IMG/VR virus record: IMGVR_UViG_3300048110_000031
Location: 1 to 26,397 of that record
Source of the DNA: a virus
DNA: 26,397 nucleotides
Strand: one strand, 5' to 3'
Shown here: piece by piece, positions 2,402 through 26,302 of the stretch
Layout: the number at the start of each line of letters is the position of its first letter
Numbering within the stretch: position 1 is the first letter of the stretch
Notes under the pieces: model-generated
Seen by the model: the letters and a program-made list of their open reading frames with translations, nothing else
What the model was told of the DNA's origin: nothing
Database searches by the model: none
Program-made: the position numbers and the translations under genes

Positions 2402-2414
2402 TATATCTCCTTAG

Positions 2415-2906: not shown

Positions 2907-2907
2907 A

Positions 2908-5873: not shown

Positions 5874-5882
5874 TTATTTTCC

Positions 5883-6494: not shown

Positions 6495-6504
6495 GGTTTC
6501 CCTC

Positions 6505-6544: not shown

Positions 6545-6563
6545 CTTGGTTTATTATTAACAA

Positions 6564-7559: not shown

Positions 7560-7694
7560 AGTATATTCTCCTTCTTGAGATTGTTAGATTTAAGTTTATT
7601 TAGAGACTTAACGCCTTCACTTAATTCCAGATTGTCTCCCTCAAGAGGTCTTTCTTTGTCGTTCTGGCAGTTGCCACACATAAGTGTCGCACAA

Positions 7695-8426: not shown

Positions 8427-8436
8427 TTGTGTTTCC

Positions 8437-10002: not shown

Positions 10003-10011
10003 TTATGAACC

Positions 10012-10236: not shown

Positions 10237-10280
10237 ATTGCTTCTCCTTCTATTTGTAATTGTTAATATCCTATTTACCA

Positions 10281-10517: not shown

Positions 10518-10519
10518 AA

Positions 10520-10708
10520 TCAACTCCTTTTGTTTAGTATGTTTTCGTCACCTCTAGCTTTCAAAAGTAATAGAAAATCAACAACACTTCGTTGTCCTGC
10601 TTTAAACCATACTTCTCTATCAGAATCTTTTAGACTCGCAGGTTCACTTGGATACACTTCGTTTAGTTTTTCTAGTAACTCTTCTACAGTTATTGGTAAT
10701 TCATCCAT
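10520..10708 (-). CDS. Hypothetical protein, 62 aa
   Basis: A small acidic protein starting MDELPITVEELLEKLNEVYP, with a predicted helix at each end and a central DREVWFKAGQRSVVDFLLLLKAR segment. I do not recognise it. It lies between nrdB (36-base gap) and the MCMGGG protein (coding ends 3 bases apart), so it is probably part of the same transcript. The ribosome site is weak (AGAAAG). The regular amphipathic pattern and tight packing with neighbours argue that it is real. Confidence 0.6.
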   Translation of the reverse strand: MDELPITVEELLEKLNEVYPSEPASLKDSDREVWFKAGQRSVVDFLLLLKARGDENILNKRS

Positions 10709-10744
10709 TTTAATTCTTTCTAATAAGGGAAGTAATAAGGCTCT

Positions 10745-11692: not shown

Positions 11693-11697
11693 TTGTT

Positions 11698-13494: not shown

Positions 13495-13805
13495 CCTTTG
13501 TATCCTTTCTCTATTTGTTTTTCTAAATTAGCTAATGCTCTCCATGCAACTTGCCCCCAATCTTCATCAAGTATGTGTCGCATCATAGCATCAAGTTCAT
13601 CACCAGATTTACTTCTATCCCAATGCAATGTCTCTGGTGTTTGACCATGTTGCAGTCCACCTTTCAGTGATACCTTGGCAACACAAGCTAGTGCATTAGG
13701 GAAATATTTTATAACACCAGTGTAAACAGGGATGGCTTTTCTTTCGGCTGCATCGTCTGGCAACGGTTTTATAAATTCAAATGTAGGTTGGTCTATATCT
13801 GCCAT
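13491..13805 (-). CDS. Predicted dATP/dGTP diphosphohydrolase-like protein
   Basis: A 104-aa protein with the short conserved pattern of the phage dATP/dGTP diphosphohydrolase N-terminal family (formerly DUF5664). In that family a KYFPxAL-type helix leads into a Lys/Gly turn, W..S, and a final helix with H at the metal site. Here the pattern reads GVIKYFPNALACVAKVSLKG, HWDRSKSGDELDAMMRHILDED and WGQVAWRALANLEKQIE. Members are MazG-like all-alpha folds; some remove pyrophosphate from purine dNTPs. It overlaps nrdA by ATGA and the exonuclease gene by 13 bases, so it sits inside a nucleotide-supply operon. Family placement is by eye from these blocks. Confidence 0.6.
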   Translation of the reverse strand: MADIDQPTFEFIKPLPDDAAERKAIPVYTGVIKYFPNALACVAKVSLKGGLQHGQTPETLHWDRSKSGDELDAMMRHILDEDWGQVAWRALANLEKQIEKGYKG

Positions 13806-14533
13806 AGCTTCACCTCACCTGTCTTCTTGTCGTATTCACCGTGGCGTAAAATCCTGGCCACCCTTGCTTGTTGCAATGCATCTTGCTCATTCATGCCCGC
13901 CTTCTCATAGGCTTTAACAACAATCTCCCACATATCTTTTACTGGCATATCTTTGTCAGCTAACATTTTATTAGCAGTGACTGCCCCAACTTTTGGTACG
14001 CCAGAGTATCCGTCAACAGTGTCACCTGTCAGAGTCTGAATCATGTGAAAGTGGTTAGCTTCGTTTAGTGAAATCTTTTGTACTGTTTCACCATCACGAC
14101 AATAGTTACAAGGCACACCCATAAAGTCCTTATCTATAGAACAGATAATAGTTTCATCTTTAGATGGCTTTGTAGCTAAGATACCAAGTACGTCATCAGC
14201 TTCTAAGCTAGTATAGAATACAGCTTTGTATTTTTTAATTAGATGACTACGCATATCACCAAGCACTAACGGCTTACGCTTTTGTTTACGATTGTCTTTG
14301 TATGTTGGCAGTACATCTTTACGAAAATTCTTGGTGTCCGTAATAGCCACTACAATAGAATCAGCTTTTAGTTTTTTCTTTAGTGCATCAATACCATCAT
14401 CAACCATCTTCATGGCTTCGGGTGTGTATGAATGCAATGTCCATAGGTTATCATCCCACTTAATAGGCTGTTCAGATTTGACTGCCGATTGATATGCAAT
14501 GATGTCACCATCGATTAACAATGTTCTTTTCAT
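13793..14533 (-). CDS. 5'-3' exonuclease, T7 gp6-like
   Basis: A 246-aa FEN/PIN-type nuclease, somewhat shorter than T7 gp6 (300 aa). Acidic metal-binding clusters are visible: D8 and D10 in LLIDGDIIAYQ, the ADD of SLEADDVLGIL, the DKD of CSIDKDFMGV, and the helix-turn-helix-like DGYSGVPKVGAVTANKML with its Asp and Gly spacing. A basic segment, YKDNRKQKRKP, fits the arch that contacts DNA. In T7 this enzyme removes RNA primers and degrades host DNA to nucleotides for reuse. Its position after DNA polymerase and before the RNR genes fits that role. The ribosome site is AAAGGAAACTAAA. Confidence 0.92.
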   Translation of the reverse strand: MKRTLLIDGDIIAYQSAVKSEQPIKWDDNLWTLHSYTPEAMKMVDDGIDALKKKLKADSIVVAITDTKNFRKDVLPTYKDNRKQKRKPLVLGDMRSHLIKKYKAVFYTSLEADDVLGILATKPSKDETIICSIDKDFMGVPCNYCRDGETVQKISLNEANHFHMIQTLTGDTVDGYSGVPKVGAVTANKMLADKDMPVKDMWEIVVKAYEKAGMNEQDALQQARVARILRHGEYDKKTGEVKLWQI

Positions 14534-14545
14534 TTTAGTTTCCTT

Positions 14546-14935
14546 TTAGTCTACGAGGTTTGCGGATTTAAACACTTCGGATAATGGAATGAGTACGCAT
14601 TTGGATTGCCATCCATCACCAATCATCTTTGTGTTGTCTTTAAATTTCTCAACAATCTTTTTGAGAATGGGTACTTCAAACATAATAATAGCGTAGTTTG
14701 ATTTACCTCTTGCTAGTATGTGAAACCAGTAGTCGGCTTCTGTAACTGATAGGCCAGATGGTTTACCACGGCATTCTATTTCAATAGCTATGTTACCTGT
14801 CTTGTGCCACCAATCACGTTCTGTTTTAACTTCTATCTTATCTTTTGATTCACCTAAGATAGATGCCACCATTGCTTCACGTTCTTCACCAAACTTTAAA
14901 TCGATGTCGAACTTATTAGTATATGTTTTTGTCAA
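14546..14935 (-). CDS. PD-(D/E)XK nuclease-like protein of unknown role
   Basis: A 129-aa protein whose middle reads KIEVKTERDWWHKTGNIAIEIE followed by CRGKPSGLSVTEADYWFHIL. A strand with Glu, an Asp after a Lys/Arg-rich turn, then TGN and an acidic beta strand (EIE) is the arrangement of small restriction-endonuclease-like folds, and the 'RGKPSGL..TeADYW' block is a motif I associate with uncharacterised phage proteins of this type. The usual ExK lysine is not evident (the strand reads EIECR), so activity is uncertain. It overlaps DNA polymerase by ATGA and precedes the exonuclease, suggesting a role in DNA processing or host DNA breakdown. It is not endonuclease I, which is encoded separately. 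Confidence 0.6.
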   Translation of the reverse strand: MTKTYTNKFDIDLKFGEEREAMVASILGESKDKIEVKTERDWWHKTGNIAIEIECRGKPSGLSVTEADYWFHILARGKSNYAIIMFEVPILKKIVEKFKDNTKMIGDGWQSKCVLIPLSEVFKSANLVD

Positions 14936-16683
14936 TGTGTTTCGCTCCAGTTGTTCCCGATTTTATATTCACCATCCAGAGGCAACCTTATCCCAAGGTC
15001 TTTCCCTGCACGGTCAATACAATCAACCGCCAACTGACCGACTTCTTCAGCCAAATGTGTAGGCACTTGAATTTGAATCTCATCATGTATCCAAAGCAAT
15101 TGAGTAACATCATCATATTTTTTTATGGCGTTGTTAAACTCGACTAACCATTGCTTGGCACAACAAGCCCCTGCTCCTTGAAGCAAAGTATTGAGTGATG
15201 AAAATTTATTTCTTACTTTTATAAGTCTACCATCAAGGCCGACAAGGTATCCCCTATCCGCAGCCGAATGTACTTGCTCAATTAATTTGGCTAGTGCGGG
15301 CATACGATTTAGGAATCTTTCTTTGACAAGCTTGGCTTCTTTGTTTGTCTTGCCTGTCACTTCAGCAATCTTTCCAACACCACCACCGTAAAGCCAACAA
15401 TAGAAAAATCGTTTCGCTAGGTCACGACTTTCTAATCCCGCAGCTTCTTGGTTTGCAGTGTGGATATCACCATCCAAAACTATCTTGGCGTATTCACCAT
15501 TGTCTATCTTATGTAAATAGTGGGCGAGTAATCTGGTTTCGATTCCGCTTTGGTCAACGCCAACCATCTTGTAGCCTTTCGGCACGGTAAACAATTCTCT
15601 AAACTCTTTCCCGTATGGTGCATAGACCGCAGGTACTTGTTGAAGGTTGGGGTTGCTTGCCGTGCTACGGCCTGTCACCGCTCCGTTAGTATTAACAGAA
15701 CCATGTAACCTGCCGTCCTTCATTAGTTTTAGATAAGCTTGTTTACCATCCCCCAACATACCAAGTCGCTTCTCTAAGAGGAAGTATTCAGCGAGTAGTT
15801 TGGCTTCGGGGAATGGTAACTGGTTTAACACACGGTCATCCACCTTGGGTGAACCATCGGGTGTAAATTCTTTAGGCTTCCAATCGTGTAAAGTTTTTAA
15901 CCTGTCAGCAATGTGTTGTCTTGATGACGGATTAAACTGTGTATGTGATACCTTTATAAAAGGCTCACCCTTTACATATCCTCTGGCTTTGTTGTTAACC
16001 TTTGGAATAAATTCTGTACGAACTTCGATGGGTGGGAACACTTCTTGCAGTTCTTGGGCAATCGCTTCTCTCTTGGATGATAGCTTCGCATATAGTGTTG
16101 TCGCTTTTTCTGTATCAAACATGATACCGTATTGTTCTTGCCTTGATATGATTTCACAAACTTCATGCTCCAATTTAATTGCTTGTTCTGAGTATCTCTT
16201 AGCAAGCATACGTTGAAATAAAGTATGAGTGGTATGGCAATCTTGTATGCAGTAGTCCAACATCTCTTGTGTAAACTCTGACCAATCTGTTTCTATCTCC
16301 TGCTTTGGATTACCAAGACGTAACCCCCATGCTTTCAGTGAATGGCTGCCCCATAGTTTTGTAGGGATTGCTTTTGACTTTGTGTCGATATCAAAAACAT
16401 CTGGGTAGATTAACCTTGACCCAACTAAAGTATCAAACACCCTGTTAGGTTTAAGGTCTGGATAGAACTTTAGTAACTGAGGTATGTCATACTTTATTAT
16501 GTTATGACCAATGATGCATACTGCTTTGTTTAAAGCATCCACACCTTCTCTTAGACTACCAGTGCATTGTTTGGTGTCACTGTAAGTTGAGACTACATTA
16601 GAATGTATATCTTTAATAACTATGCAGTGTACCTTGGTTGCATCTAGACCATCAGTTTCTATATCAAAAACTAATTCGCTCAT
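14932..16683 (-). CDS. DNA polymerase, family A, T7 gp5-like with 3'-5' exonuclease
   Basis: A 583-aa replicative polymerase, compact compared with T7 gp5 (704 aa). The proofreading domain keeps D7 and E9 (VFDIETDG), D66 (GHNIIKYD) and D148 (YCIQDCH). The polymerase domain has motif A D377 (GVDQSGIETRLLAH), motif B K424 and Y428 (AKRFFYCWLYGGG), and motif C D534 (WIHDEIQIQVP). Y428 corresponds to T7 Y526, the residue that lets T7 polymerase accept dideoxynucleotides. The short length suggests that the T7 thioredoxin-binding loop is absent or reduced, so processivity would need another factor or be lower. The start is fixed by TAGGAGAAACAA. It presumably works with the primase-helicase and SSB encoded just upstream. 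Confidence 0.96.
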   Translation of the reverse strand: MSELVFDIETDGLDATKVHCIVIKDIHSNVVSTYSDTKQCTGSLREGVDALNKAVCIIGHNIIKYDIPQLLKFYPDLKPNRVFDTLVGSRLIYPDVFDIDTKSKAIPTKLWGSHSLKAWGLRLGNPKQEIETDWSEFTQEMLDYCIQDCHTTHTLFQRMLAKRYSEQAIKLEHEVCEIISRQEQYGIMFDTEKATTLYAKLSSKREAIAQELQEVFPPIEVRTEFIPKVNNKARGYVKGEPFIKVSHTQFNPSSRQHIADRLKTLHDWKPKEFTPDGSPKVDDRVLNQLPFPEAKLLAEYFLLEKRLGMLGDGKQAYLKLMKDGRLHGSVNTNGAVTGRSTASNPNLQQVPAVYAPYGKEFRELFTVPKGYKMVGVDQSGIETRLLAHYLHKIDNGEYAKIVLDGDIHTANQEAAGLESRDLAKRFFYCWLYGGGVGKIAEVTGKTNKEAKLVKERFLNRMPALAKLIEQVHSAADRGYLVGLDGRLIKVRNKFSSLNTLLQGAGACCAKQWLVEFNNAIKKYDDVTQLLWIHDEIQIQVPTHLAEEVGQLAVDCIDRAGKDLGIRLPLDGEYKIGNNWSETH

Positions 16684-16700
16684 TTGTTTCTCCTATATTG

Positions 16701-16910
16701 TTAATGTAAAGTGCAGAGTCTTACTGATATCCGCTCCGCTGCTTCGTTCTCCTCTTCTAAAACTCCAAGGGCTGAATCAATCATTAAGTAAGAGGGCAAC
16801 GATGCTACCTCTATCTCAACGTGCAATCCTGGATTCTGCATTACTTCTGCCAATGCATCCATGATGACCTTCGTCCACTCAAGACCCTTCTCATCAAAAC
16901 TCTTGGACAT
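16701..16910 (-). CDS. Hypothetical protein, 69 aa
   Basis: A small acidic, mostly helical protein starting MSKSFDEKGLEWTKVIMDALAEVM, with no motif that I recognise. Its first 17 bases overlap the end of the primase-helicase gene and it ends 17 bases before DNA polymerase. It therefore lies where T7 carries small accessory genes (the 4.x series). Packing and direction argue that it is a real gene; function is unknown. Confidence 0.6.
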   Translation of the reverse strand: MSKSFDEKGLEWTKVIMDALAEVMQNPGLHVEIEVASLPSYLMIDSALGVLEEENEAAERISVRLCTLH

Positions 16911-18468
16911 ATGTAGACTCCATCAGAATACCTTTGGTTGTGTCGTAAGTTAATGTACCTGCCTCACCACAATCACCACTATGTCTATTCTTCAAAACTC
17001 TAACAGTAGTCTCATGTTGGTTCTCACTGTCTTGCTGATTTCGTTCTAGTCCTAAAACCATATCGGACAGTTGAGCAATGGCGTGTGAACCTCTCAAAGA
17101 ATTTAAGCTTGTCATCTTACCTGCTTCAAATCCTTCATCACCGCTTGGCCTACGCAAGTGAGACACAAGCATCATGCCTACACCTGTCTCTTCAGTAAGA
17201 CAACGTAAGGCAGTCATTGTATTGTCAATCAATCTACGCTCATCACCATCGGCAATAGAACTTACAATGATTGATAAGTGGTCTAAGAATATCCAACCAC
17301 ATTCACATCCTTTGGCAAGGTATCTAATCTTCGATAACAAATTGTCAGCCATCGATGAACCAAAGTGATTGTATAAAAAGAACCTGCCGTTGCCGACAGT
17401 CGCATCAAAAGTATTTCTAAAGTCTTCATCCGTCACACCTTCTCTTGATAAGTGCAATGGCTTTTGCATTTCGATACCCATGATACCAAGGGCTGTTCTT
17501 TGCATTGACTCTTCCAATGCTACATAGCCAACAGTCTCACCTTGTTTAAGTAAATGGTGTGCTATCTGTCTTGCAAATAAACTTTTACCTATACCACTAC
17601 CTGCGGTCACGGTTACAAGTTCTGACTTTCTCATTCCACGGGTACGCCCGTTAAGATTTTGAAAAGGATAAGGCACTGACTTGGTGTCATCAATCTTGTG
17701 AACGATGTCATAGATATCTGCACCCGATACAATACCGTCTGGTGTGTATGGCTTTGCATTCCAAAATGCTTTGACAAGTTCTTCGCCTTTGCCTTCAACC
17801 AACATCTCGTTGGCATCCTTCAAACCAAAGTTCATTATCTTTGCTTTTTGTGGTGCAAATAATTTAGCACATTCATCCGCAGCTTCACGCCCGTGAACGT
17901 CTTGGTCAAAACAAAATGTAATAGTTTCAAATTTATCTAGCCATTCCATGTTAGCTTGGATGTCACGCTTCGCACCCTTGCTACCAGACTTGATTGAAAC
18001 TACAGGCCATTTGTTACCAAGCATTTGACTCATGCTCATGGCATCAACTTCGCCTTCGCAAACTGTCACGTTCTTGCCCGAACCAAATAGGCTCTGACCA
18101 AACAGTTCAGTTTCTTTTGCTGACCCCAACCATTGGAAACTCTTATCTGGGTAACGCAACTTCTGTGCTTTTATATTACCTTGCTTGTCATGGTAATTGG
18201 CAATCTGTACAGGCTTACCGTTGTACTTGCCGACCCTATAATTAAATTTCTTAATGGTGTCTAAACTTAAACGCCTACTACTAATAGCCGATAAGTCACC
18301 AGTGATGAGTTCACTGGGAACACTTTCCGTTTCCATCTGTTCTCCTATATGAATTGAAGTATGCTTGCCACAACCGAAACAATAACTATGCCCGTCACTG
18401 TAGACTGCTACGTTATCTTTGCTTCCGCATGAATCACATGGAGCATGATGGACAAAGTCACTTTCCAT
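16894..18468 (-). CDS. Bifunctional DNA primase-helicase, T7 gp4-like
   Basis: A 524-aa protein close to T7 gp4 (566 aa), which unwinds the fork and lays primers for lagging-strand synthesis. The N-terminal zinc ribbon has C11, C14, C30 and C33 (C-x2-C-x15-C-x2-C). The primase TOPRIM domain shows E138 in CEGEVDAM and the acidic FCFDQDVHG around residues 186-193. The DnaB-like helicase domain has Walker A GSGIGKS (290-296), Walker B WIFLDHLSI (about 392-400), the VSHLRRP segment (about 435-441) and a late KNRHSGD. A strong terminator lies just upstream of this gene, so its expression depends on readthrough or on a promoter that I cannot identify. The start follows TTTAGGAGACAAAG. Confidence 0.96.
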   Translation of the reverse strand: MESDFVHHAPCDSCGSKDNVAVYSDGHSYCFGCGKHTSIHIGEQMETESVPSELITGDLSAISSRRLSLDTIKKFNYRVGKYNGKPVQIANYHDKQGNIKAQKLRYPDKSFQWLGSAKETELFGQSLFGSGKNVTVCEGEVDAMSMSQMLGNKWPVVSIKSGSKGAKRDIQANMEWLDKFETITFCFDQDVHGREAADECAKLFAPQKAKIMNFGLKDANEMLVEGKGEELVKAFWNAKPYTPDGIVSGADIYDIVHKIDDTKSVPYPFQNLNGRTRGMRKSELVTVTAGSGIGKSLFARQIAHHLLKQGETVGYVALEESMQRTALGIMGIEMQKPLHLSREGVTDEDFRNTFDATVGNGRFFLYNHFGSSMADNLLSKIRYLAKGCECGWIFLDHLSIIVSSIADGDERRLIDNTMTALRCLTEETGVGMMLVSHLRRPSGDEGFEAGKMTSLNSLRGSHAIAQLSDMVLGLERNQQDSENQHETTVRVLKNRHSGDCGEAGTLTYDTTKGILMESTYVQEF

Positions 18469-18483
18469 CTTTGTCTCCTAAAT

Positions 18484-18524
18484 AAAAAACCCTAGGCATC
18501 TTGGCGAACCAAAAAGACCTAGGG
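18484..18524 (-). terminator. Intrinsic terminator with UUCG-capped inner stem
   Basis: On the minus strand CCCTAGG (18524-18518) and CCTAGGG (18496-18490) form a 7-bp outer stem. Between them TTGG-TTCG-CCAA gives a second stem closed by the very stable UUCG tetraloop. TTTTTT follows immediately. It lies after endonuclease I and 16 bases before the primase-helicase ATG, so it should reduce transcription from early genes into replication genes, or stabilise the 3' end of the upstream mRNA. Confidence 0.85.
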
Positions 18525-18575
18525 CTGTACGACACACAACTGTAGTACATGATTGTTGTAAAATTTTTTGCCTGT

Positions 18576-18989
18576 TTATGCAACTGGTTTCTCATAGAGC
18601 CACTCCGTTGGTATAAACTTGTCAGCGTATGGGAATCCGTTTCGCTCACACCACATAGCGTAAGTTGTTTTAGACTTCTTAGAAATCCTGGACTTGCTAT
18701 TGCTGAAAACAAAACGGATATCCCTCTTCGGATGATGTTTCTTTACGAGTATCATCTTCTGACGGTCTGAAGTTAGAAGCTGACCTTTGCATTCAATTAT
18801 GATTCCATTGTTAAGAACAAAGTCGGGAGTGTACCTATGTTCTTTCTCTGGACGGACATAATTAAGAACCAACTTTTCATATTCAAAGGGGATAGATAAT
18901 GAATTAAGTTGATTTGCAACGGCCTCTTCTAACCCAGACCGATACTTAGAAGTCCGATTCGCTCTTTGAATCCTCTGATACTGATGCAT
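18576..18989 (-). CDS. Endonuclease I (Holliday junction resolvase), T7 gp3-like
   Basis: A 137-aa protein clearly related to T7 endonuclease I (149 aa). The catalytic residues are all present with T7 spacing shifted by one: E21 in RSGLEEAV (T7 E20), D56 in YTPDFVL (D55), and E66 and K68 in GIIIECKG (E65, K67). Further shared blocks are LNSLSIPFEYEKL, HPKRDIRFVFSNS and CERNGFPYADKFIPTEWL. The enzyme resolves branched DNA before packaging and breaks host DNA. The gene overlaps the SSB gene by 44 bases, an unusually long overlap, but a GAGGAAACCAAAG ribosome site supports this ATG. Confidence 0.96.
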   Translation of the reverse strand: MHQYQRIQRANRTSKYRSGLEEAVANQLNSLSIPFEYEKLVLNYVRPEKEHRYTPDFVLNNGIIIECKGQLLTSDRQKMILVKKHHPKRDIRFVFSNSKSRISKKSKTTYAMWCERNGFPYADKFIPTEWLYEKPVA

Positions 18990-19530
18990 CTTTGGTTTCC
19001 TCTTTTTCTTGAACGTATCCTACTTCCTCATCGAAACCAAAGCGACCTGCACCGCTCGTACCTTCTACATACTGGATGACTTGAACAGCCCTTAGTCTAA
19101 GACTAACTCCTGCTCCAACCATTGATGTATAGTACGGAGCAATAGCACCGTTCACTTTCATTTCAGACCCTGCGTAAATGTTATGCTCTAGCATGGGCGT
19201 TCCCTTCGCATCAAATACTGCGGGTTTGTATGCAGCTTTTGATTTGAATTTGATAATGACTTTACCAGTTGGGTTACCCTCTTGGTCTAGTTCATCAGCG
19301 TAAGGACGATTAGCTTCCTTACATGGTTTGCTACCAAGCTTCTTCTTCTGCTCTTTGACATTCTCATCATAAACAGAATCGATTTGTGTGATAACAGGTT
19401 GAGCATCTTCTTTAGTAAGAATGAGATTCACCTTGTATTCACCTTCCTCATTAAACTTAGTATCTGGAGTAGACAGATAAGGAAAAGCTGCCACTCCTAC
19501 TGGTGTTGTAAATGCATTTGACATTGCCAT
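18946..19530 (-). CDS. Single-stranded DNA-binding protein, T7 gp2.5-like
   Basis: A 194-aa protein in the gp2.5 slot (T7 gp2.5 is 232 aa). It begins MAMSNAFTTPVGVAAFPYLSTPDTKFNEEGEYKVNLIL, the usual start of phage gp2.5-type OB-fold proteins. It ends in a long acidic tail closing SESDF with a terminal Phe, the feature that in T7 contacts DNA polymerase and helicase and competes with DNA for the binding groove. The ribosome site is AAGGAGACTAAAC. It lies 90 bases after RNA polymerase, in a gap that carries one copy of the ATCCRCCAACGGAT motif. Confidence 0.93.
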   Translation of the reverse strand: MAMSNAFTTPVGVAAFPYLSTPDTKFNEEGEYKVNLILTKEDAQPVITQIDSVYDENVKEQKKKLGSKPCKEANRPYADELDQEGNPTGKVIIKFKSKAAYKPAVFDAKGTPMLEHNIYAGSEMKVNGAIAPYYTSMVGAGVSLRLRAVQVIQYVEGTSGAGRFGFDEEVGYVQEKEETKDASVSEDSKSESDF

Positions 19531-19603
19531 GTTTAGTCTCCTTGTTGGTTAATAATAACCTTCAGATAATCTTTACCCTTCAGTCTAATAGGGAAGGTAT
19601 TGT

Positions 19604-19617
19604 ATCCGTTGGCGGAT
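19604..19617 (-). promoter_or_regulatory. ATCCRCCAACGGAT motif, copy upstream of SSB
   Basis: On the minus strand this reads ATCCGCCAACGGAT, then ACAAT. It differs by one base from the motif at 22116-22129 upstream of RNA polymerase. Both are intergenic, both point in the direction of transcription, and both precede key genes. The ATCC-N6-GGAT ends are palindromic. It may be a phage RNA polymerase promoter element or an operator; neither is proven. Confidence 0.5.
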
Positions 19618-19620
19618 TGG

Positions 19621-22083
19621 TTATGCGAAAAAAAAGTCACTGCTCAATACCAAGTCTAAATCAAAGTCACCTTTTGGTGGTACTTCGGGTAGCTTTTTCT
19701 TGCTCTTTTCATCCAGTACAGGCTCGACTGATTGCTTGATACTTTGCAACAAATCGTAGTCCTTATACATCTCAACAAATGTGAAACGAATGCTGTCTGC
19801 AAGCTTGTCGCAGTCGGCAGCCACAGTTCCATATGAGTCGTGAACATTACAGAATGACTGAACACCTTTTTGTAAAGCATCGACTGTTGTTAAGAAAAGA
19901 TGGGCAGAATCCTGGGAATGGATTGCATTAGGTGGCAGTGAGTTACCTGCTTTTAAAACTGCAAGCTTCTCTGTCTCCTCATGTATCCTTGGCCTTATAA
20001 TCTCACCAAACAATTTAGTCTCGACCCTCTTTAACCGTAGTTCGGGATAAGATTGCACGACAGGAAAACCAGAAGGTGACACCCATCGTATCGGTAAATT
20101 ATTTTTTGCCATAATTCTTGCGGTCTTTTGCAAGTAGTCCATAGACACACGGGCAGAGTTTATTATCTCACCAATTGAATCCCAGATGATGCCCGACAAA
20201 AATGTACAGGCTTTAAACTCTTGTGTGCCAAATGGATGTACATCACCCTTGTCTCCACGCTTGGTCAAATCCTCAAGCACAAAGTCGGAGCAACTGTATC
20301 TAGTTGAACCATACGGCAGGGTCATTATTGCTCTTTTGCAGGTAGACCTTTTGACTCCGTATTTAATCCAAAGCATAGCAAGCGGGTTGTCTATCTTGGT
20401 AAGTGCTTCGGTTACATTGTCAGCTACAATTTGATAGACATCATTAGGTACGTCACCAGTTTGTATAAGGTTTACGGCTTGAGCTGCAACAGGGTCACGT
20501 TGGATTGCTGAGTAATGTTGGATGCCGTTACAACTTCCATCCATTGAGCAAATAAAACGAGACACATATCCATAGCCATGCTTTTGAAACTCCGCCCACT
20601 CTTTGCACCATGCTAAGAATGACCAAGGCTTGTCTGCCTGTTCCCACTCACGGTGGGTGTAAGGGTCTTCGGCTATTGCTATGAATGAATCAGAACTATC
20701 ATTGACCCACTTAACCCGTACATCATAACTATCTTTGTCATAGCCATACAAGTTAGCACCTTGGACACCAAGCCAGAACGCCCCGTTGTTCTCTTCGGTG
20801 ATTGGCTTGCCGTTAGCAAACAAAAGCAATGCCTTTGCATAGTCTACTGACTGACCATTTAAATAATTTGGCACATGGTATGCCCGACCCCGAAAGTCTA
20901 AGGTGTGTGGCATATAGATTTCTGGCTCATCTTTAAATTTACCTGCAATCCATAGCACCTTACTCAAGTGCAGCCGTTTAGATTTTATCCTTGCATTTTC
21001 CGTATGCACCTTGACAGCTTCCGCACGGTAGGCTTTACGAGCCTTCGCATTCTCCGCAATGTCATGCGGTTTTTGTGGTAGCGGGAGTAATTCGGCTTTT
21101 GGTAACCCGCCAACATCGATGCTATTATCCCAAACATGATTCAGTACCTCATATATAAAAGTGTTAATGACATAAGGCGTTGACTGCATCGCATTGATAC
21201 CATCAATCACCACGGGCATGGAGTGCTTCTCCAAGTCTTGTAAGTTTTTCTTGTCTCTATATTTTACCAGTTGAAGTGGTTTGACATGGCGTGAATAGTA
21301 CCCACCACCGATAACTTTTTTATCTTCCCAAGATTTTGGGCGAACCAAAGTCGGGAAGTATTCGGGAGCAAGCAACTCCATAAACCCATTTCTATCTTTA
21401 ATCCATTCCATAGTTTTTTCTGTAGCAACTAGCGATACAATTTTCTTTACGCCATTGCCTTTCTTGTCAACTTCAACAAGGCCAGTATGTTCTATGAATA
21501 GTTCGATAAGTTTGTAGCCAACATGAACCTTCTCTGTTCTTGTCCATGCAGGTACTTCAACACCATCTCTTACTGCGGATTCCCGCATCTTCCTACGCTT
21601 GTAACCATAGCCAAAGCTACGCTTATCAAGGTCACGCTTTACGACCCCATATAATTCTGGGTTCTTGTCTTCAAAGAAACGTAGCCACATTTCTGTTTCT
21701 ACATTCTTACCAATAGTGATAGCAGTGGATGTTAACTGTCTATTGATTGTGATTGAGTTAATGATGGTCTTGGCTGCAATCAAACAGGCTACCTCTGGTG
21801 GTATCTGTTCAAGCAACTTCACGGCAATCGGTGTTGCCCCTTTGGTGCGGTTGCCTTCATCGACAAAAGCAATTAGCCCTTGTGCCATTGGGTCAATGCT
21901 CGACCCCAATAAAGTTTTACCATAATTAGAGAACGACTCTTCGCCACGCTCTTTATGTTCTTGTACCCTCTTGTTAAATCTGTTGATTCCAAGAGTCCTC
22001 ATCTCAAGTTCAAGGGCAGTCTGTCGCTCCAAATCTTTAGATGATATTTCGATTAGCTTTACTAATTCGTTAGGTAATTCCAC
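19621..22083 (-). CDS. Single-subunit DNA-directed RNA polymerase, T7 gp1-like
   Basis: An 820-aa polymerase (T7: 883 aa) that transcribes the middle and late phage genes. Catalytic residues align with T7: D515 in SMDGSCNGIQHYSA (T7 D537), K583 and Y591 in CKRAIMTLPYGS (K631, Y639), and D749 in CNVHDSYGT (D812). The distance from D749 to the C-terminus is 71 residues, the same as in T7. The protein ends SSDFFFA, matching the T7 FAFA foot that contributes to the active site. The start codon is GTG at 22083, set by TAGGAG 7 bases upstream. The leader carries a hairpin, a repeat motif and, further up, the attachment site, so regulation of this gene is probably tied to lysogeny. Confidence 0.97.
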   Translation of the reverse strand: MELPNELVKLIEISSKDLERQTALELEMRTLGINRFNKRVQEHKERGEESFSNYGKTLLGSSIDPMAQGLIAFVDEGNRTKGATPIAVKLLEQIPPEVACLIAAKTIINSITINRQLTSTAITIGKNVETEMWLRFFEDKNPELYGVVKRDLDKRSFGYGYKRRKMRESAVRDGVEVPAWTRTEKVHVGYKLIELFIEHTGLVEVDKKGNGVKKIVSLVATEKTMEWIKDRNGFMELLAPEYFPTLVRPKSWEDKKVIGGGYYSRHVKPLQLVKYRDKKNLQDLEKHSMPVVIDGINAMQSTPYVINTFIYEVLNHVWDNSIDVGGLPKAELLPLPQKPHDIAENAKARKAYRAEAVKVHTENARIKSKRLHLSKVLWIAGKFKDEPEIYMPHTLDFRGRAYHVPNYLNGQSVDYAKALLLFANGKPITEENNGAFWLGVQGANLYGYDKDSYDVRVKWVNDSSDSFIAIAEDPYTHREWEQADKPWSFLAWCKEWAEFQKHGYGYVSRFICSMDGSCNGIQHYSAIQRDPVAAQAVNLIQTGDVPNDVYQIVADNVTEALTKIDNPLAMLWIKYGVKRSTCKRAIMTLPYGSTRYSCSDFVLEDLTKRGDKGDVHPFGTQEFKACTFLSGIIWDSIGEIINSARVSMDYLQKTARIMAKNNLPIRWVSPSGFPVVQSYPELRLKRVETKLFGEIIRPRIHEETEKLAVLKAGNSLPPNAIHSQDSAHLFLTTVDALQKGVQSFCNVHDSYGTVAADCDKLADSIRFTFVEMYKDYDLLQSIKQSVEPVLDEKSKKKLPEVPPKGDFDLDLVLSSDFFFA

Positions 22084-22100
22084 TAGCTTTCTCCTATTCT

Positions 22101-22119
22101 GGATTAAAATAATTAATCC
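22101..22119 (-). other. Hairpin in the RNA polymerase leader
   Basis: A perfect 7-bp inverted repeat, GGATTAA-TTATT-TTAATCC, ends 17 bases before the GTG start of RNA polymerase and just before its ribosome site. It is AT-rich with no following U-tract, so it is not a typical terminator. It overlaps the ATCCRCCAACGGAT motif by four bases. Confidence 0.55.
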
Positions 22120-22129
22120 GTTGGTGGAT
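22116..22129 (-). promoter_or_regulatory. ATCCRCCAACGGAT motif, copy upstream of RNA polymerase
   Basis: On the minus strand this reads ATCCACCAACGGAT, 33 bases before the RNA polymerase start. A near-identical copy precedes SSB, and a degenerate one (ATCCGTTG-CGG, other orientation) lies at 22281-22291 in the integrase 3' end. It adjoins the left arm of the inverted repeat around the attachment site, so it could also be an arm-type integrase site. Confidence 0.5.
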
Positions 22130-22159
22130 AGTCGCTAAACTGTACGTTTACTTAGGTTT

Positions 22160-22235
<76 letters not shown>

Positions 22236-22275
22236 ACATAAAAAAAACGTAACAGTTTAGCGGTCTATACATTAT

Positions 22276-23229
22276 TTATACCGCAACGGATACAGGAAAA
22301 TGATTTCTCTCATCCGTTCCAGGATTGTGAGATAACACCTTCATTGCATCCATAACCGTCTTATTATTTAACTTAGCGTACTGCATAGTTGTCTTGATAT
22401 CTTTGTGACCCATGATTTCTTTGACCACATAAATATCGACCCCACGCTGTACTAATCTTGATGCAGTCGTATGTCGTAACATATGAATACAAAAAGACTC
22501 ATCTTCTTCTTGGAAAGCAGTTCTCACTTCTTCCCGCCAGTTTCTCTGTACTGCCCAATAGTTATTAGGAAATACAGGTTCATCAGCTTTCTTACCAACA
22601 CAAAGGTCAAGCACTATCTCTCTAGCCCGTGGGATAAGCGGGATGATGCTATACTCGTTGTTGTTCATGTGCTTCCTGTCATACAAGTTGATGAAGTTTC
22701 CGCTGCGGTCAACATCACCTACTAAGAAGCCCTTCTTTTTACATGATGCAGGTGCATTACTATTGTGACCAATAGTTTCGGATAGCCGTAATCCTGTATC
22801 AATTTGGAATAGATAAAGATTCAAAAACTCTTCCATCTTTTTAGCTTTTAAAATCTCAACCAACCGCAGCTCCTCTTCGGGTTGCATGAACCTAAGTCGA
22901 TGCGACCCCTTTTCTCGCCAATCAAAATGTAAAGGCTCAAAGTCCTTCCCATAAATGCTTGGCTTGGCCTTGGCGTACTTTATCAAAGATGACAAAGCAC
23001 TGTAGTAGTGATTGATTGTTGAACCCGACAGTTCACGCTTGTCCAAAGCTTCTTCCAAACGCTCAATGTCTAAGTCATCAATCTCATTGACTAACTTTTG
23101 CGACCCAAAGAAATTAACAAGCCACTTGGCTCGTGATTTCTGTGCCTTATCTTTCTTGTTCCACACTTTAACACTTACCTTGTGGTACAGTTCCGATATG
23201 GTTCTAGGGTCATACTTTTTGTGTGTCAT
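22276..23229 (-). CDS. int: Tyrosine-type site-specific integrase
   Basis: A 317-aa phage integrase with a SAM-like N-terminal core-binding domain (about residues 25-95) and a complete catalytic domain. All six signature residues can be placed: R148 in DTGLRLSE, K186 in YDRKHMNN, H249 and R252 in HMLRH, H275 in MGHKD, and the nucleophile Y284 in TMQYAKL. It would join the phage circle to the host tRNA-Phe gene through the core at 22195-22235, just downstream of its stop codon. It follows the MarR-like gene by 10 bases and is probably co-transcribed with it. No separate excisionase was recognised; the ribbon-helix-helix protein upstream could serve that role. Confidence 0.95.
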   Translation of the reverse strand: MTHKKYDPRTISELYHKVSVKVWNKKDKAQKSRAKWLVNFFGSQKLVNEIDDLDIERLEEALDKRELSGSTINHYYSALSSLIKYAKAKPSIYGKDFEPLHFDWREKGSHRLRFMQPEEELRLVEILKAKKMEEFLNLYLFQIDTGLRLSETIGHNSNAPASCKKKGFLVGDVDRSGNFINLYDRKHMNNNEYSIIPLIPRAREIVLDLCVGKKADEPVFPNNYWAVQRNWREEVRTAFQEEDESFCIHMLRHTTASRLVQRGVDIYVVKEIMGHKDIKTTMQYAKLNNKTVMDAMKVLSHNPGTDERNHFPVSVAV

Positions 23230-23239
23230 AGTATTATCC

Positions 23240-23563
23240 TCATTGTTCTGTTAGTGATTTATAAACCCGATTACCTTTATTGGTAAGACGCACTAACTTA
23301 CGCCTACGTTCCATCGGGTCTTCTATTGCTTCAACCAAACCAAATCCTGGTTGAGCTGCAATCTTTATTTTACTAAGGATGCTGACGTTCCGACTAACGG
23401 AACTTTGTGCGACCCCTAGTTTAGCTTTTAGTTCGGTCATGCTGATTCCCCTTGAATCTTTATGCATCCCGACAAGTAGGAACAGTGACATACATTGTGC
23501 TTGCATCTCTCCGTTAAGCTTTCTAAATTCTTCGATTGCTTTGAACAATCCTTTAGCATTCAT
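23240..23563 (-). CDS. MarR-like winged helix-turn-helix regulator
   Basis: A 107-aa protein with the core of a MarR-type winged helix: ISMTELKAKLGVAQSSVSRNVSILSKIKI reads as helix 2, turn and recognition helix. The wing-like stretch after it ends in the characteristic 'DpmeRRRKLVRLTNKGNRVYKSL', which closely follows the MarR pattern 'D.RdrR...l.LT.kG..l'. It is shorter than most MarR proteins (about 140 aa) and lacks much of the dimerisation helix at the C-terminus. Placed directly before the integrase, it is a candidate regulator of lysogeny or of integrase and RNA polymerase expression. The ATG follows AGAAGAGGGAGT. Confidence 0.85.
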   Translation of the reverse strand: MNAKGLFKAIEEFRKLNGEMQAQCMSLFLLVGMHKDSRGISMTELKAKLGVAQSSVSRNVSILSKIKIAAQPGFGLVEAIEDPMERRRKLVRLTNKGNRVYKSLTEQ

Positions 23564-23605
23564 ACTCCCTCTTCTGTTCCATTTTATTTACAGTCGTGGC
23601 GGAAC

Positions 23606-23740
23606 TTACCGACCCTTCAGATATATTCTGATGTAACCTACGTCTATCCATCTTTCATGCTCATCAGCGTCTGTCGAAAACCCGACCCACCGATTCCATG
23701 ACTCAACATAAATCGAAAAAAAATATAAATTTAAATACAT
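23606..23740 (-). CDS. Small hypothetical protein, 44 aa
   Basis: This reading frame is shorter than usual gene-calling limits. It starts at an ATG preceded by AAAGGAAAAGACA, a good ribosome site, and ends 42 bases before the MarR-like gene. The product is rich in Tyr, Trp, Phe and charged residues (for example VESWNRWVGF and HERWIDVGYIRIYLKGR). It resembles a folded or membrane-edge peptide more than random translation. I do not recognise it. It sits first in the probable regulator-integrase transcript. Confidence 0.5.
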   Translation of the reverse strand: MYLNLYFFSIYVESWNRWVGFSTDADEHERWIDVGYIRIYLKGR

Positions 23741-23753
23741 TGTCTTTTCCTTT

Positions 23754-23822
23754 CTATATTGTTGGTGAATCACACGGGCGGTCATCAGACCACGCTTTTA
23801 TTTTCGCTACCTCTAGACTCAA
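23754..23822 (-). CDS. Possible 22-aa leader peptide with TTG start
   Basis: A TTG at 23822 follows GAAGGGGGTGATTAAA, a nearly complete match to the anti-Shine-Dalgarno complement. The frame runs 22 codons to a TAG just before the ribosome site of the 44-aa gene. The strong ribosome site is the main reason for listing it; the peptide itself (LSLEVAKIKAWSDD...) shows nothing recognisable. It may be a leader peptide or only a ribosome-loading site. Confidence 0.25.
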   Translation of the reverse strand: MSLEVAKIKAWSDDRPCDSPTI

Positions 23823-23842
23823 TTTAATCACCCCCTTCAAAA

Positions 23843-23871
23843 ATTATAGTTAAACGACCCACAGTATCCAT
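23843..23871 (-). promoter_or_regulatory. Possible host promoter for the regulator-integrase transcript
   Basis: A perfect TATAAT lies at 23848-23843 on the minus strand, with a weak -35 (ATGGAT) 17 bases upstream. TGTGGGTCG at 23863-23855 lies between the two boxes. GTGGGTCG is also the core of the tandem repeat at 26277-26302, so this may be an operator site. The rest of the gap 23741-23937 holds only the possible leader peptide and the hairpin listed separately. Confidence 0.4.
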
Positions 23872-23881
23872 TAACGTATTA

Positions 23882-23923
23882 ATTGCAATAAAAATAAATT
23901 CCTGGAAAGCTGCAATAGCTTCC
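23882..23923 (-). terminator. Terminator-like hairpin after the ribbon-helix-helix gene
   Basis: On the minus strand GGAAGCT-ATTGC-AGCTTTCC forms a hairpin with one bulged base, followed by AGGAATTTATTTTTATT, an interrupted U-rich tract. It starts 15 bases after the stop of the ribbon-helix-helix gene. It would end the early transcript before the lysogeny module. Part of it is one copy of a 20-bp repeat also found at 26260-26279. Confidence 0.5.
23894..23913. repeat. 20-bp direct repeat, copy 1
   Basis: ATAAATTCCTGGAAAGCTGC is identical to 26260-26279, about 2.37 kb away, and the match ends exactly at both borders. The two copies flank the whole early gene block. This copy is inside a terminator-like hairpin. 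Confidence 0.85.
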
Positions 23924-23937
23924 CAAGAATCCAAGAT

Positions 23938-24117
23938 TTAAGCGTGGGCTTCAATAAAGTTATCCACCGCTTTACGAATTAAATCCGCAACAGCTACCTG
24001 CGAGTTAGCATCTACGCTTTGCTTAAAAGCCATTTGCTTTAGCTTGTCGTAGTTACGAACCTGCAAGTTCACATTGTATGTGATGGTGGGTTCTTTAATC
24101 TTGTTTGGCCTTGCCAT
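23938..24117 (-). CDS. Ribbon-helix-helix DNA-binding protein, 59 aa
   Basis: A 59-aa protein beginning MARPNKIKEPTITYNVNL, with ATG at 24117 preceded by AAAGGAGAGACTT. The plan is a short basic arm, a beta strand with alternating residues (TITYNVNLQV), then two helices (NYDKLKQMAFKQ and SQVAVADLIRKAVDNFIEAH). This is the Arc/MetJ/CopG ribbon-helix-helix fold in which the strand pair enters the DNA major groove. Such small proteins act as repressors, plasmid copy control factors or excisionase-like factors. It is the last gene of the early block, and a palindromic or tandem site such as 26277-26302 would be a natural target. That link is inference. Confidence 0.8.
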   Translation of the reverse strand: MARPNKIKEPTITYNVNLQVRNYDKLKQMAFKQSVDANSQVAVADLIRKAVDNFIEAHA

Positions 24118-24128
24118 AAGTCTCTCCT

Positions 24129-24368
24129 TTAGTTGCCTATCGAATCGTTGACGTACACCCTTAGATGGGTGGAGAGGGCGATAGGTTGCCCACTTTCATA
24201 TCTACGCCAATTTGCCTTTGCTTCATCGTTCATATGCTGACCTTTGACCACCACATGGTAGCGGTCTTTGTTAAGGTAAGCTTTGAGTTGCCCTATGAAT
24301 GCTCGACCCTCTTGGTTGTTAGGAATCTCCGCAAACTGATAGCGACTAAGGTTTGGTTTCTTGTTCAT
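24129..24368 (-). CDS. Hypothetical protein, 79 aa
   Basis: A small basic protein beginning MNKKPNLSRYQFAEIPNNQEGRAF, with a central segment KAYLNKDRYHVVVKGQHMNDEAKANWRRY that could form a strand-helix DNA or RNA contact. I do not recognise a family. It overlaps the cysteine-rich gene upstream by ATGA and precedes the ribbon-helix-helix gene by 11 bases, so it is part of the early operon. Small early proteins of T7-like phages commonly bind and redirect host enzymes, which is a general possibility only. Confidence 0.65.
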   Translation of the reverse strand: MNKKPNLSRYQFAEIPNNQEGRAFIGQLKAYLNKDRYHVVVKGQHMNDEAKANWRRYESGQPIALSTHLRVYVNDSIGN

Positions 24369-24559
24369 GTATTTACTCCATGTTCATTGATACAATGGTT
24401 ACAGACTAATAATGAGTCTTGGACAATTTTTGGGAATTGCTCAAGTAAATGAGCAACCCCGCATTGTTGGATATCGTCTTTTGTGAACCCATCAAACCCA
24501 CACATTTCTTCATGGTGGTGTTCATTGGCACAGATACCACAGTTAAAAATATCATCCAT
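24365..24559 (-). CDS. Cysteine-rich, probably zinc-binding small protein, 64 aa
   Basis: This 64-aa early protein has C7-x2-C10 near the N-terminus, C20 after a His/Glu-rich stretch (EHHHEEMC), C33, and C53-x2-C56 in LLVCNHCINEHG near the end. Two CxxC knuckles about 43 residues apart suggest a zinc ribbon or a treble-clef-like fold, with the middle forming a helix (AHLLEQFPKIVQDSL). No catalytic residues of an HNH nuclease are clear. It is joined to its neighbours by a TAATG overlap upstream and ATGA downstream, so the three are translationally coupled. A host-factor-binding role is plausible but unproven. Confidence 0.7.
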   Translation of the reverse strand: MDDIFNCGICANEHHHEEMCGFDGFTKDDIQQCGVAHLLEQFPKIVQDSLLVCNHCINEHGVNT

Positions 24560-24792
24560 TATTTTAACTCCAATACTACGTCACGTTTTCTAAGTTTTAG
24601 TTCACCCGCATTTAGGTTGAACCTTCGATACTGATGCAAATCAGCATCCCATACAGTCACATGGTTTTTACTATCTCTAGTAGCCTCTATGAGCCTACCG
24701 TGAAAGTGACGGACGTTACCATTAACTTTGGTAAAACTTCCCGATACAAAGTGACCTTTGAAAGCGTTTAGTAATGTTTGTTTCTTGTTCAT
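24559..24792 (-). CDS. Hypothetical protein, 77 aa
   Basis: Two ATGs are possible; I choose 24792 because it lies 8 bases after AGGAG and overlaps the methyltransferase stop as ATGA, whereas the ATG at 24798 is only 2 bases from the ribosome site. The protein begins MNKKQTLLNAFKGHFVSGSF and is basic. It looks beta-rich: VRHFHGRLIEA, HVTVWDADLHQYRRFNLNAGE and VVLELK could form a small barrel of SH3 or OB type. I do not recognise a family. The VTVWDADLHQYRRFNL pattern suggests a nucleic-acid-binding or protein-inhibitor fold, as inference. Confidence 0.65.
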   Translation of the reverse strand: MNKKQTLLNAFKGHFVSGSFTKVNGNVRHFHGRLIEATRDSKNHVTVWDADLHQYRRFNLNAGELKLRKRDVVLELK

Positions 24793-25787
24793 AAGCATAA
24801 CTCCTTATTGTTGTGTTTGATGCTCTTTAAGATGTGAGCAATGACATCGACCGTAAATCCGTTACCAAGCATTTTATAGCGTTGGGTATTCGATACATGG
24901 TCAGTGTATCCTTCGGGAACTGTTTGAAGGCGTTCAGCCTCAAGCGGTGTAAGCTTACGCCATTTGTATGGCTCAACGAAAACTTTAGGTTCACGATTGC
25001 CACCCGTACAAGCGTTAAGCGTTGGTGACTTGCCACTAGAATGATAGACACGTTTGATAGTGTCATGTCCGTTGATGTCAGCGTTGCCAACATGAATCAG
25101 ACCCTCATTGCTAAACACAAGTTGCCTACGGTGTTTTTCAAAATAAGATTTGAGGTTACCGCCTTTGAAATAGTTGGCATCGATACAATGTGATTTGGTA
25201 CGGTCAGTGCAACCGTCTTCCAAAATGTCATGCAAGTAAATGCCTTGGTCAACAATCTCATCAATAGGCAAGTTAGTCCAATATAGACGCTTGCGGTTTT
25301 GTGCTGAGAATTTGTTGCTATTGATTTCGATAGGCTCGACCCCAAGATATTTACTGATAACGTCTTGAGATTCTTTTTTCATCTTGACGTTTTCAAGTAG
25401 GAAATATTTAGGGTTCAATGCATCTTTAAGTTTAACAAACTCAAAGAATAGTTTTGAACGTGGGTCATCAAAGTTTAATTGCTTACCCGCAAAACTAAAA
25501 CCTTGGCATGGCGAACCACCGATAAGCAAATTGATGTGCCTATATGTATTGTCGGCAATCTTGAGCATTCCCGCCTTGCCATTGTTATATGTGATTGTGT
25601 CAAGCTTAGTGATGTCACCAAGTTGGACGGTATCTGGAAAGTTGGCTTGATGTACCTTGATTGCATAAGGGTCAATTTCTGACGCACAATACAATGACGG
25701 TGTGATGCCTAGTCTTTGGAGGGCAAGACGCCCCCCACCTAGACCATCAAAACAACTTAGGACTTGTAAGTTATCTTTGAGTAACAT
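24789..25787 (-). CDS. DNA (cytosine-5-)-methyltransferase
   Basis: A 332-aa enzyme that would transfer a methyl group from S-adenosylmethionine to carbon 5 of cytosine. The C5 family motifs appear in order: motif I SCFDGLGGGRLAL (about 11-23), motif II SEIDPYA, motif III GDITKL, motif IV GGSPCQGFSFAG with catalytic C94, motif VI LLENVKM with E132, motif VIII QNRKRLYW (163-170), and motifs IX-X in LTPLEAERLQTVP and YKMLGNGFTVDVIAHIL. The region between VIII and IX, the target-recognition domain, is about 110 residues, so a single specificity is likely. No restriction enzyme gene is adjacent. As an early gene it could protect phage DNA from host restriction or modify regulatory sites. It is TAATG-coupled to the upstream gene. 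Confidence 0.95.
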   Translation of the reverse strand: MLLKDNLQVLSCFDGLGGGRLALQRLGITPSLYCASEIDPYAIKVHQANFPDTVQLGDITKLDTITYNNGKAGMLKIADNTYRHINLLIGGSPCQGFSFAGKQLNFDDPRSKLFFEFVKLKDALNPKYFLLENVKMKKESQDVISKYLGVEPIEINSNKFSAQNRKRLYWTNLPIDEIVDQGIYLHDILEDGCTDRTKSHCIDANYFKGGNLKSYFEKHRRQLVFSNEGLIHVGNADINGHDTIKRVYHSSGKSPTLNACTGGNREPKVFVEPYKWRKLTPLEAERLQTVPEGYTDHVSNTQRYKMLGNGFTVDVIAHILKSIKHNNKELCL

Positions 25788-26167
25788 TATTTTGCCCCCA
25801 TTGGAAAGTTAGCTTTTGCCCATTGTGTCGTAGCTTTGTAACGAGACACAGAACCTTTCTTTTTGTAAATCCAAGGATAAGTGCGACCCTTTGAATTGTA
25901 CTCAAGAAGTTCATAAAGTGGATGGTCAACTGTTGGGTCAACACCCTCAAGCTTAGACCAAAACTCCAAATCTTTTTGGCCTTTGGTTTTTGCACCATCG
26001 ACCCGCAAAACTAATTTGAATGTGGCCTCATCGGGATTGTATGAACAATTGCCAAGTTCCCATGTGACGTTCTCAAGTTCAGACAGTTCAGCAAACCTAT
26101 TGGTCAACTTCATAAAGTCTTGTCTAAACTTTTGTAAGATTGGTTTATTTAATTGTGTAACTTTCAT
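25787..26167 (-). CDS. Hypothetical early protein, 126 aa
   Basis: The first gene after the early promoter. It begins MKVTQLNKPILQKFRQDFMKL with an N-terminal helix, has a beta-like middle (NVTWELGNCSYNPDEATFKLVLRV), and ends with KKKGSVSRYKATTQWAKANFP. The motif 'elGn.sYnp...f.lkl' resembles a conserved phage protein of unknown function that I have seen annotated only as hypothetical. Its stop overlaps the methyltransferase start, so the two are coupled and may act together. The ATG follows GAGGTAGTACAA. No catalytic motif is apparent. Confidence 0.7.
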   Translation of the reverse strand: MKVTQLNKPILQKFRQDFMKLTNRFAELSELENVTWELGNCSYNPDEATFKLVLRVDGAKTKGQKDLEFWSKLEGVDPTVDHPLYELLEYNSKGRTYPWIYKKKGSVSRYKATTQWAKANFPMGAK

Positions 26168-26201
26168 TTGTACTACCTCATATTTAGTTGTGTGAGTGGT
26201 C

Positions 26202-26229
26202 AGTATAGCAGGTAAACATACTTATGCAA
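26202..26229 (-). promoter_or_regulatory. Host sigma-70-type early promoter, extended -10
   Basis: On the minus strand TTGCAT (26229-26224) and TATACT (26207-26202) are separated by 16 bases, with TGC just before the -10 (extended -10). Transcription would start near 26195, about 28 bases before the first early gene. Host RNA polymerase should use it to transcribe the early block before phage RNA polymerase is made. Confidence 0.72.
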
Positions 26230-26247
26230 TCCGTTTATGCATTTAAT

Positions 26248-26271
26248 CCAGGAAAAGATATAAATTCCTGG
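26248..26271. repeat. CCAGGAA-N10-TTCCTGG inverted repeat
   Basis: Perfect 7-bp arms separated by an AT-rich 10-bp spacer, centred about 30 bases upstream of the -35 box of the early promoter. Each arm contains a CCWGG site (CCAGG, CCTGG). The spacing of about 17 bp between arm centres suits a dimeric DNA-binding protein. Confidence 0.75.
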
Positions 26272-26279
26272 AAAGCTGC
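26260..26279. repeat. 20-bp direct repeat, copy 2
   Basis: ATAAATTCCTGGAAAGCTGC, identical to 23894-23913. Here it overlaps the right arm of the inverted repeat and runs into the tandem 13-bp repeat. Confidence 0.85.
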
Positions 26280-26302
26280 GACCCACTGGTGCGACCCACT
26301 GG
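26277..26302. repeat. Tandem 13-bp direct repeat, TGCGACCCACTGG x2
   Basis: Two perfect, directly adjacent copies of TGCGACCCACTGG. On the minus strand the core reads CCAGTGGGTCGCA. The 13-bp period places the two sites on different faces of the helix, unlike typical 10-11 bp spaced operators. A related TGTGGGTCG lies in the possible promoter at 23843-23871, and CGGTGGGTCGG occurs in the 44-aa ORF. The rest of the window to 26397 holds an A/T-rich stretch and no gene that I can support. Confidence 0.85.

Follow-up and report, generated by a model that had tools for sequence, protein, structure and literature searches.

We identify a 107-aa protein, predicted to be a MarR-type winged-helix regulator, as the probable controller of a lysogeny cassette (microprotein–marR–int–attP–RNAP) in a marine T7-like podovirus, where it would act as a dimer on three palindromes and restrain the phage RNA polymerase (RNAP) together with the genes that this polymerase serves. 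The window, i.e., the whole stretch of DNA analyzed, is a 26.4-kb IMG/VR fragment in which all large genes lie on the minus strand. Its gene content, with several names resting on our reading of the ORFs, appears to comprise RNA polymerase, SSB, endonuclease, primase/helicase, DNA polymerase, ribonucleotide reductase, and structural genes. The closest relative found, L002, carries a MarR protein that is 97% identical; after it, the nearest by MarR sequence are S42-C7 and pelagiphages.

A MarR-Type Protein Encoded Directly Upstream of the Integrase

The marR gene (23240..23563, minus strand) is real: its ORF is intact from ATG to stop and was unbroken when the record was searched with it. Relatives of the protein occur in 52 phage records (tblastn, best E 1e-30), and the profile phrog_9665 ("transcriptional regulator") matched it over residues 4–106, i.e., its whole length (E 1.5e-27), as well as 38/38 family members. 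Pfam MarR_2 gave a subthreshold score for the window protein (19.7 of 27 bits, short of the curated Pfam criterion) and was matched by 20/38 family members at E 0.01, the best at 3.6e-8, while a search with the family profile retrieved 26 PDB sequences, nearly all of them named as MarR-type regulators. An AlphaFold2 model built on a 38-row alignment gave a confident winged helix (pLDDT 89.7), and the Foldseek PDB matches listed were of MarR type, the best query TM-score being 0.74 for the MepR–DNA complex 4lll; the best viral structural match was gp0.7 of cyanophage P-SSP2. We therefore file the protein under the MarR family because of fold and profile, not Pfam score. The first-pass annotation had proposed a MarR-type winged helix, to be abandoned if structure prediction gave another fold, and the confident model with its MarR-type matches supports that proposal. 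A CI-type lambda repressor was considered and rejected, as the HTH_3 match fell below the cut-off and a second oligomerization/cleavage domain was lacking.

Across the family alignment, S57, R58, R87, and G97 are invariant and D82 nearly so, meaning that the recognition-helix arginine and the D/R residues of the wing are kept. Compared with L002, marR has a dN of 0.016 against a dS of 0.256 and is thus under purifying selection. S57, R58, and G97 align with S66, R67, and G106 of pMarR (gp0.7) from P-SSP7, in which DNA binding requires R67, the effect of Ca2+ requires S66, and self-association requires G106 (PMC9692554). By analogy, the window protein probably binds DNA through R58 and self-associates through G97.

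The first-pass annotation had further supposed that MarR might sense small ligands or oxidation, coupling integration to host metabolism, and that its short C terminus altered dimerization or ligand sensing. The C-terminal helix in the model is short (residues 95–105), and bacterial proteins sharing the winged-helix fold (MepR 4lll, MarR 5h3r, and PcaV 4fht; query TM-score up to 0.74) differ in being about 30–40 residues longer, with a full C-terminal dimerization helix. However, shortness is common to the whole phage family, and altered dimerization is not supported; self-association is retained in the P-SSP7 homologue (125 aa), where it depends on the glycine matching invariant G97. Ligand or redox control is a common property of the bacterial MarR family, and Ca2+, to which the tested homologue responds, raises the DNA affinity of P-SSP7 pMarR about fourfold (PMC9692554). 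Yet the family has no conserved cysteine (the sole one, C24, appears in the alignment only here and in L002), and the long dimerization helix of classical MarR proteins is absent family-wide, so that we regard a metabolically controlled switch of this kind as very unlikely. What stands of the earlier idea is a regulatory role in the lysogeny decision, which is plausible and had already been proposed by others.

A gap of 10 nt separates marR from a 317-aa tyrosine integrase (22276..23229, minus strand; Phage_integrase, 64 bits; phrog_1) that starts at 23229, in agreement with the adjacency noted at first pass. Farther downstream, beyond attP, lies the T7-like RNAP gene (19621..22083, minus strand; ORF, Pfam, and PHROG matches), the proposed regulatory target. 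In order and direction (marR–int–attP–RNAP), the window fits a temperate T7-like cassette. The marR–int–RNAP order recurs across the phage records inspected, although P-SSP2 has no annotated integrase in the int slot, and in almost every viral contig of sufficient length; the phrog_9665 family occurs in marR–int–attP–RNAP order in pelagiphages, LUZ100, P-SSP7, and other T7-like phages. The marR–integrase pair is not new, having been published for several T7-like phages, and a role for it in lysogeny had already been proposed.

Putative Promoter and Terminator, and Attachment Site, of the marR–int Unit

A sigma70-like promoter (TGGATA-16-TATAAT, 23843..23870, minus strand; 10/12 match) precedes the microprotein–marR–int unit. 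It is the best such match on either strand in 19.4–26.4 kb, a region in which sigma70-like matches overall were fewer than in shuffles. Behind it in the upstream direction is an intrinsic-terminator-like hairpin (23895..23933, minus strand; 17 pairs and a T-rich tail), which may isolate the unit from the upstream early genes. The first-pass annotation had thought a single transcript for marR and int probable; because of the 10-nt gap, the unit's own promoter behind a terminator, and the co-transcription of the LUZ100 homologues (PMC10134795), we likewise consider that the two genes are probably co-transcribed. Just before the hairpin, a small ribbon-helix-helix-like protein is encoded at 23938–24117 (minus strand); the slot adjoining marR holds a comparable small protein in P-SSP7 and S-TIP37.

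Between the integrase and RNAP genes lies an attP identity segment (22195..22235, minus strand) that covers 41 nt from the 5' end of a tRNA-Phe(GAA) gene, with one mismatch to tRNA-Phe genes of alphaproteobacterial genomes; the cassette thus has a tRNA-derived attP beside its integrase, as expected of a temperate one. The attP/operator spacer is identical to that of L002 at 192/192 positions and the marR promoter region at 100/101 (292/293 together), compared with 88–95% for coding DNA.

The attP segment is flanked by two inverted-repeat arms, CGCTAAACTGT on the minus strand (22252..22262) on the integrase side, identical in L002, and ACAGTTTAGCG on the minus strand (22133..22143) on the RNAP side. 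Inverted repeats of that score were found in 60/88 related spacers vs. 33/264 shuffles; the arms lie about 50–60 nt to each side of the attP core, are present in most relatives, and differ in sequence among them. They are unlikely to be MarR operators, since in most phages their sequences are unlike the palindrome described below, and are more likely to be integrase accessory sites; the integrase is XerC-like in appearance, with no obvious arm-binding domain.

A search for an integrated relative in bacterial genomes found none among the three loci matched. Two of these (L189 and L190) have marR-like genes with no T7-like RNAP nearby, and the third, L188, is a contig of phage origin within a Marinimicrobia MAG. 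L188 carries the same cassette and a tRNA-Phe attP, 36 nt of which recur in a complete tRNA-Phe of that MAG, reflecting either a host link or contamination of the MAG.

A Conserved Microprotein Precedes marR

The marR–int unit is led by a gene for a conserved 44-aa microprotein (23609..23740, minus strand). Members of this family (42–44 aa; invariant residues E13, E29, and D33) precede marR in 98/126 MarR-positive loci with enough upstream sequence, in nearly all cases 31–125 nt before it, and occur in none of the MarR-less RNAP loci. The dN/dS for the window/L002 pair is 0.07, indicating purifying selection, and the gene is unannotated in several deposited genomes. None of the 38 members matched a PHROG, nor did the window copy match Pfam; the model is all-beta (pLDDT 90), with no convincing PDB match to the predicted structure. 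The microprotein is possibly an antirepressor, an excisionase, or a cofactor.

Candidate Operators and Their Association with marR

Comparison of spacers revealed a 20-bp palindrome, roughly TATSC-N6-GSATA, with 5-bp half-sites 11 bp apart and a 6-bp spacer. The genomes in which it had initially been spotted by eye were then also those scored with a symmetrized matrix (PWM) built without any after-RNAP site. The three best matrix matches in the 26.4-kb window are O-ssb (CCAATCCGCCAACGGATACA on the minus strand, 19601..19620), the top match, which follows the RNAP stop codon with no intervening nucleotide and lies outside the training set; O-rnap (ACTATCCACCAACGGATTAA on the minus strand, 22113..22132), a training site between attP and RNAP; and O-marR (AGTATCCATTAACGTATTAA on the plus strand, 23863..23882), the third best match and also a training site, which overlaps the -35 element of the marR promoter. 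At score 12, these three matches, two of them training sites, compare with 0.6 in resampled window sequence, so that single sites are only modestly significant alone. The regions suggested at first pass for binding assays (22100–22300, 23840–23875, and 19600–19620) each hold or overlap one copy. A fourth candidate near 26230 was discarded because its matrix score was too low.

Across phages, the presence of the palindrome is linked to that of marR. At a 1% shuffle threshold, the after-RNAP palindrome was found in 45/65 distinct MarR-positive phages but in only 1/12 MarR-less relatives (Fisher p 1e-4, treating related phages as independent), and 38 of the 45 copies sit at one fixed position. 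Upstream of marR, a site was present in 26/97 regions vs. 4.9 expected. These p-values are optimistic, since the phages share ancestry and the consensus came from the very genomes on which it was tested. Counting against the proposed role, the cyanophages lack an after-RNAP site, their RNAP and SSB genes being directly adjacent. In MarR-less relatives, RNAP runs directly into a TTAAAGTACCCATAGTAGAA-like element, whereas in MarR-positive phages this element follows the palindrome. The element, seen after RNAP in the window (19531–19600) and in loci L042–L066, MarR-less and MarR-positive alike, may be a phage RNA polymerase promoter.

Some T7-like relatives have an integrase without marR (L047, L058, L061, and L066), and the palindrome is absent from those tested among them. 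In these four, the integrase lies only about 50–60 nt before RNAP, with no attP spacer. The first-pass annotation would have given up its proposal if related phages formed lysogens without marR. HTVC022P, which is reported to integrate (PMC12753301), has marR, in keeping with the proposal; the marR-less, integrase-bearing relatives do nevertheless exist.

The palindromes might instead be recognized otherwise, as RNase III-type hairpins, as integrase or excisionase sites, or by the microprotein, with MarR binding elsewhere. RNA processing sites are known near gene 1 of T7, a palindrome within a transcribed spacer could fold into a hairpin, and another symmetric element is present in the arms around attP. 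However, the palindrome arms are short (5–7 bp), some copies are far from attP, those of LUZ100 are located within promoter spacers, ahead of the point where the transcript begins, and RNAP-bearing relatives without marR lack palindromes. On this evidence, recognition by something other than MarR seems improbable.

The motif GGGTCG was also examined. It occurs 18 times at 18231–26297, always on the coding (minus) strand of the early third, and not at all in 1–18230, against 2.9 copies expected; the count is likewise 12 to 0 in L002, a skew not seen in other phages. Its spread over coding DNA on one strand rules it out as an operator, and it is perhaps a primase site or another polar motif.

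Comparison with Characterized Phages

In LUZ100, marR and int are co-transcribed from promoter P3, and its MarR has been proposed to repress expression of the phage RNAP (PMC10134795). Its gp10 is 46% identical to the window MarR, is encoded directly upstream of the integrase in the early region before RNAP, and is accompanied by a palindrome of the same type. Unlike the window, LUZ100 infects Pseudomonas, has a phage promoter, phi1, before RNAP, and has a complete tRNA-Leu gene between marR and int. We found the LUZ100 palindrome between the -35 and -10 elements of P1 and P2, two host promoters that had been mapped by transcript sequencing, and upstream of the RNAP, SSB, and DNA polymerase genes; the accessible sections of PMC10134795 contain no description of operator copies in P1 or P2.

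HTVC019P, HTVC022P, HTVC131P, and other HTVC019P-type pelagiphages share 45–54% MarR identity with the window, as well as the same gene order, a tRNA attP between int and RNAP, the microprotein gene, and the after-RNAP palindrome, but differ in their att tRNAs (Cys and Leu) and half-sites (TATGC/GGATA). Pasto, a Rhizobium/Agrobacterium phage, is reported to lysogenize (Boeckman et al. 2022, via citing papers). A profile match (E 1.4e-16) places its HTH protein in the same family, and the gene for this protein overlaps the integrase; Pasto differs from the window in the length of the HTH protein (137 aa), in its half-sites (GTCAC), and in extra genes between int and RNAP. Seven GTCAC-N6-GNGAC palindromes lie in 14 kb of Pasto, among them copies some 500 nt ahead of RNAP and 13 nt beyond it, and the 11-mer TAGTCACTCAA, with the same N6 geometry, occurs in four copies before RNAP, after it, and in the early region.

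P-SSP7 pMarR is 37% identical to the window protein, keeps all three of the functional residues, and likewise has an integrase next door; it differs in its 125-aa length, its lack of an after-RNAP site, and its demonstrated activation of a host gene. The window protein might accordingly be a host-takeover factor that acts mainly on host promoters and host RNA polymerase in early lytic infection, its place by the integrase being merely inherited gene order. The P-SSP7 protein activates a host promoter (host rne) and contacts RNAP alpha (PMC9692554), marR of HTVC022P is an early lytic gene (PMC12753301), and the key residues are conserved. However, the palindromes at fixed phage sites depend on the presence of marR, they occupy phage-borne promoters in LUZ100, and cassette and sites are strongly conserved. 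We consider a mainly host-directed role unlikely, and favor regulation of the phage's own lysogeny cassette.

A Model for MarR in the Lysogeny Cassette

In the model that we favor, a MarR dimer would bind the 20-bp palindromes through the two 5-bp half-sites 11 bp apart. Binding at its own promoter would autoregulate marR–int, while binding between attP and RNAP, and again after RNAP before the replication genes, would restrain RNAP and the genes it serves. This restraint would give time for integration at tRNA-Phe and silence the prophage, and escape from MarR binding would commit the phage to lysis. As attP lies between int and RNAP, integration would part RNAP from the early promoters. Moreover, the att tRNA reads toward RNAP here, so that prophage RNAP would come to lie behind the host tRNA promoter with O-rnap between them. 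Confinement of the attP–RNAP operator to phages with this orientation was also considered but is not claimed: sites were found in 35/43 sense vs. 20/35 antisense spacers (p 0.03), the latter keeping a weaker conserved site, and this comparison lends weak support to the host-tRNA-promoter arrangement. Integration itself is suggested by analogy with the HTVC019P-type phages and Pasto, and we infer that MarR binds these palindromes, that repression is the effect, and that this phage forms lysogens.

Several observations count against the model. In HTVC022P, whose infection is mostly lytic, marR, int, and RNAP are all expressed early (PMC12753301), and expression of marR by itself therefore does not shut RNAP off. 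The one biochemically tested member, that of P-SSP7, is an activator of a host gene with loose DNA binding (PMC9692554). LUZ100 (PMC10134795) and S-TIP37 (PMC8776855) gave no stable lysogens; S-TIP37 integrates without lysogeny and was reported to have no repressor homologues (PMC8776855), but we find that it does carry a marR family gene upstream of int. A broader generalization, that temperate T7-like phages share one switch made of a MarR repressor and the microprotein (as antirepressor, excisionase, or cofactor), with fixed palindromic operators whose half-sites co-vary with the repressor and an attP–RNAP operator that locks the prophage, is possible and we put it forward only tentatively.

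The proposal that this MarR family acts in lysogeny dates from 2022. PMC10134795 cites Boeckman et al. 2022 for binding sites around the RNAP promoter, and PMC11321410 cites the same work. What is probably added here is a candidate operator map and a linked microprotein. Integrase-bearing T7-like phages are common in the sea and may or may not keep their prophages silent; one engineering study reported no repressor homologue in T7-like cyanophages. The operator map, with three sites here, P1 and P2 in LUZ100, and seven in the stretch of Pasto, opens the proposed repressor to direct testing, and the microprotein linked to marR is a new candidate player. The palindrome, in turn, offers a sequence marker by which the capacity of a T7-like phage for a temperate life cycle might be assessed.
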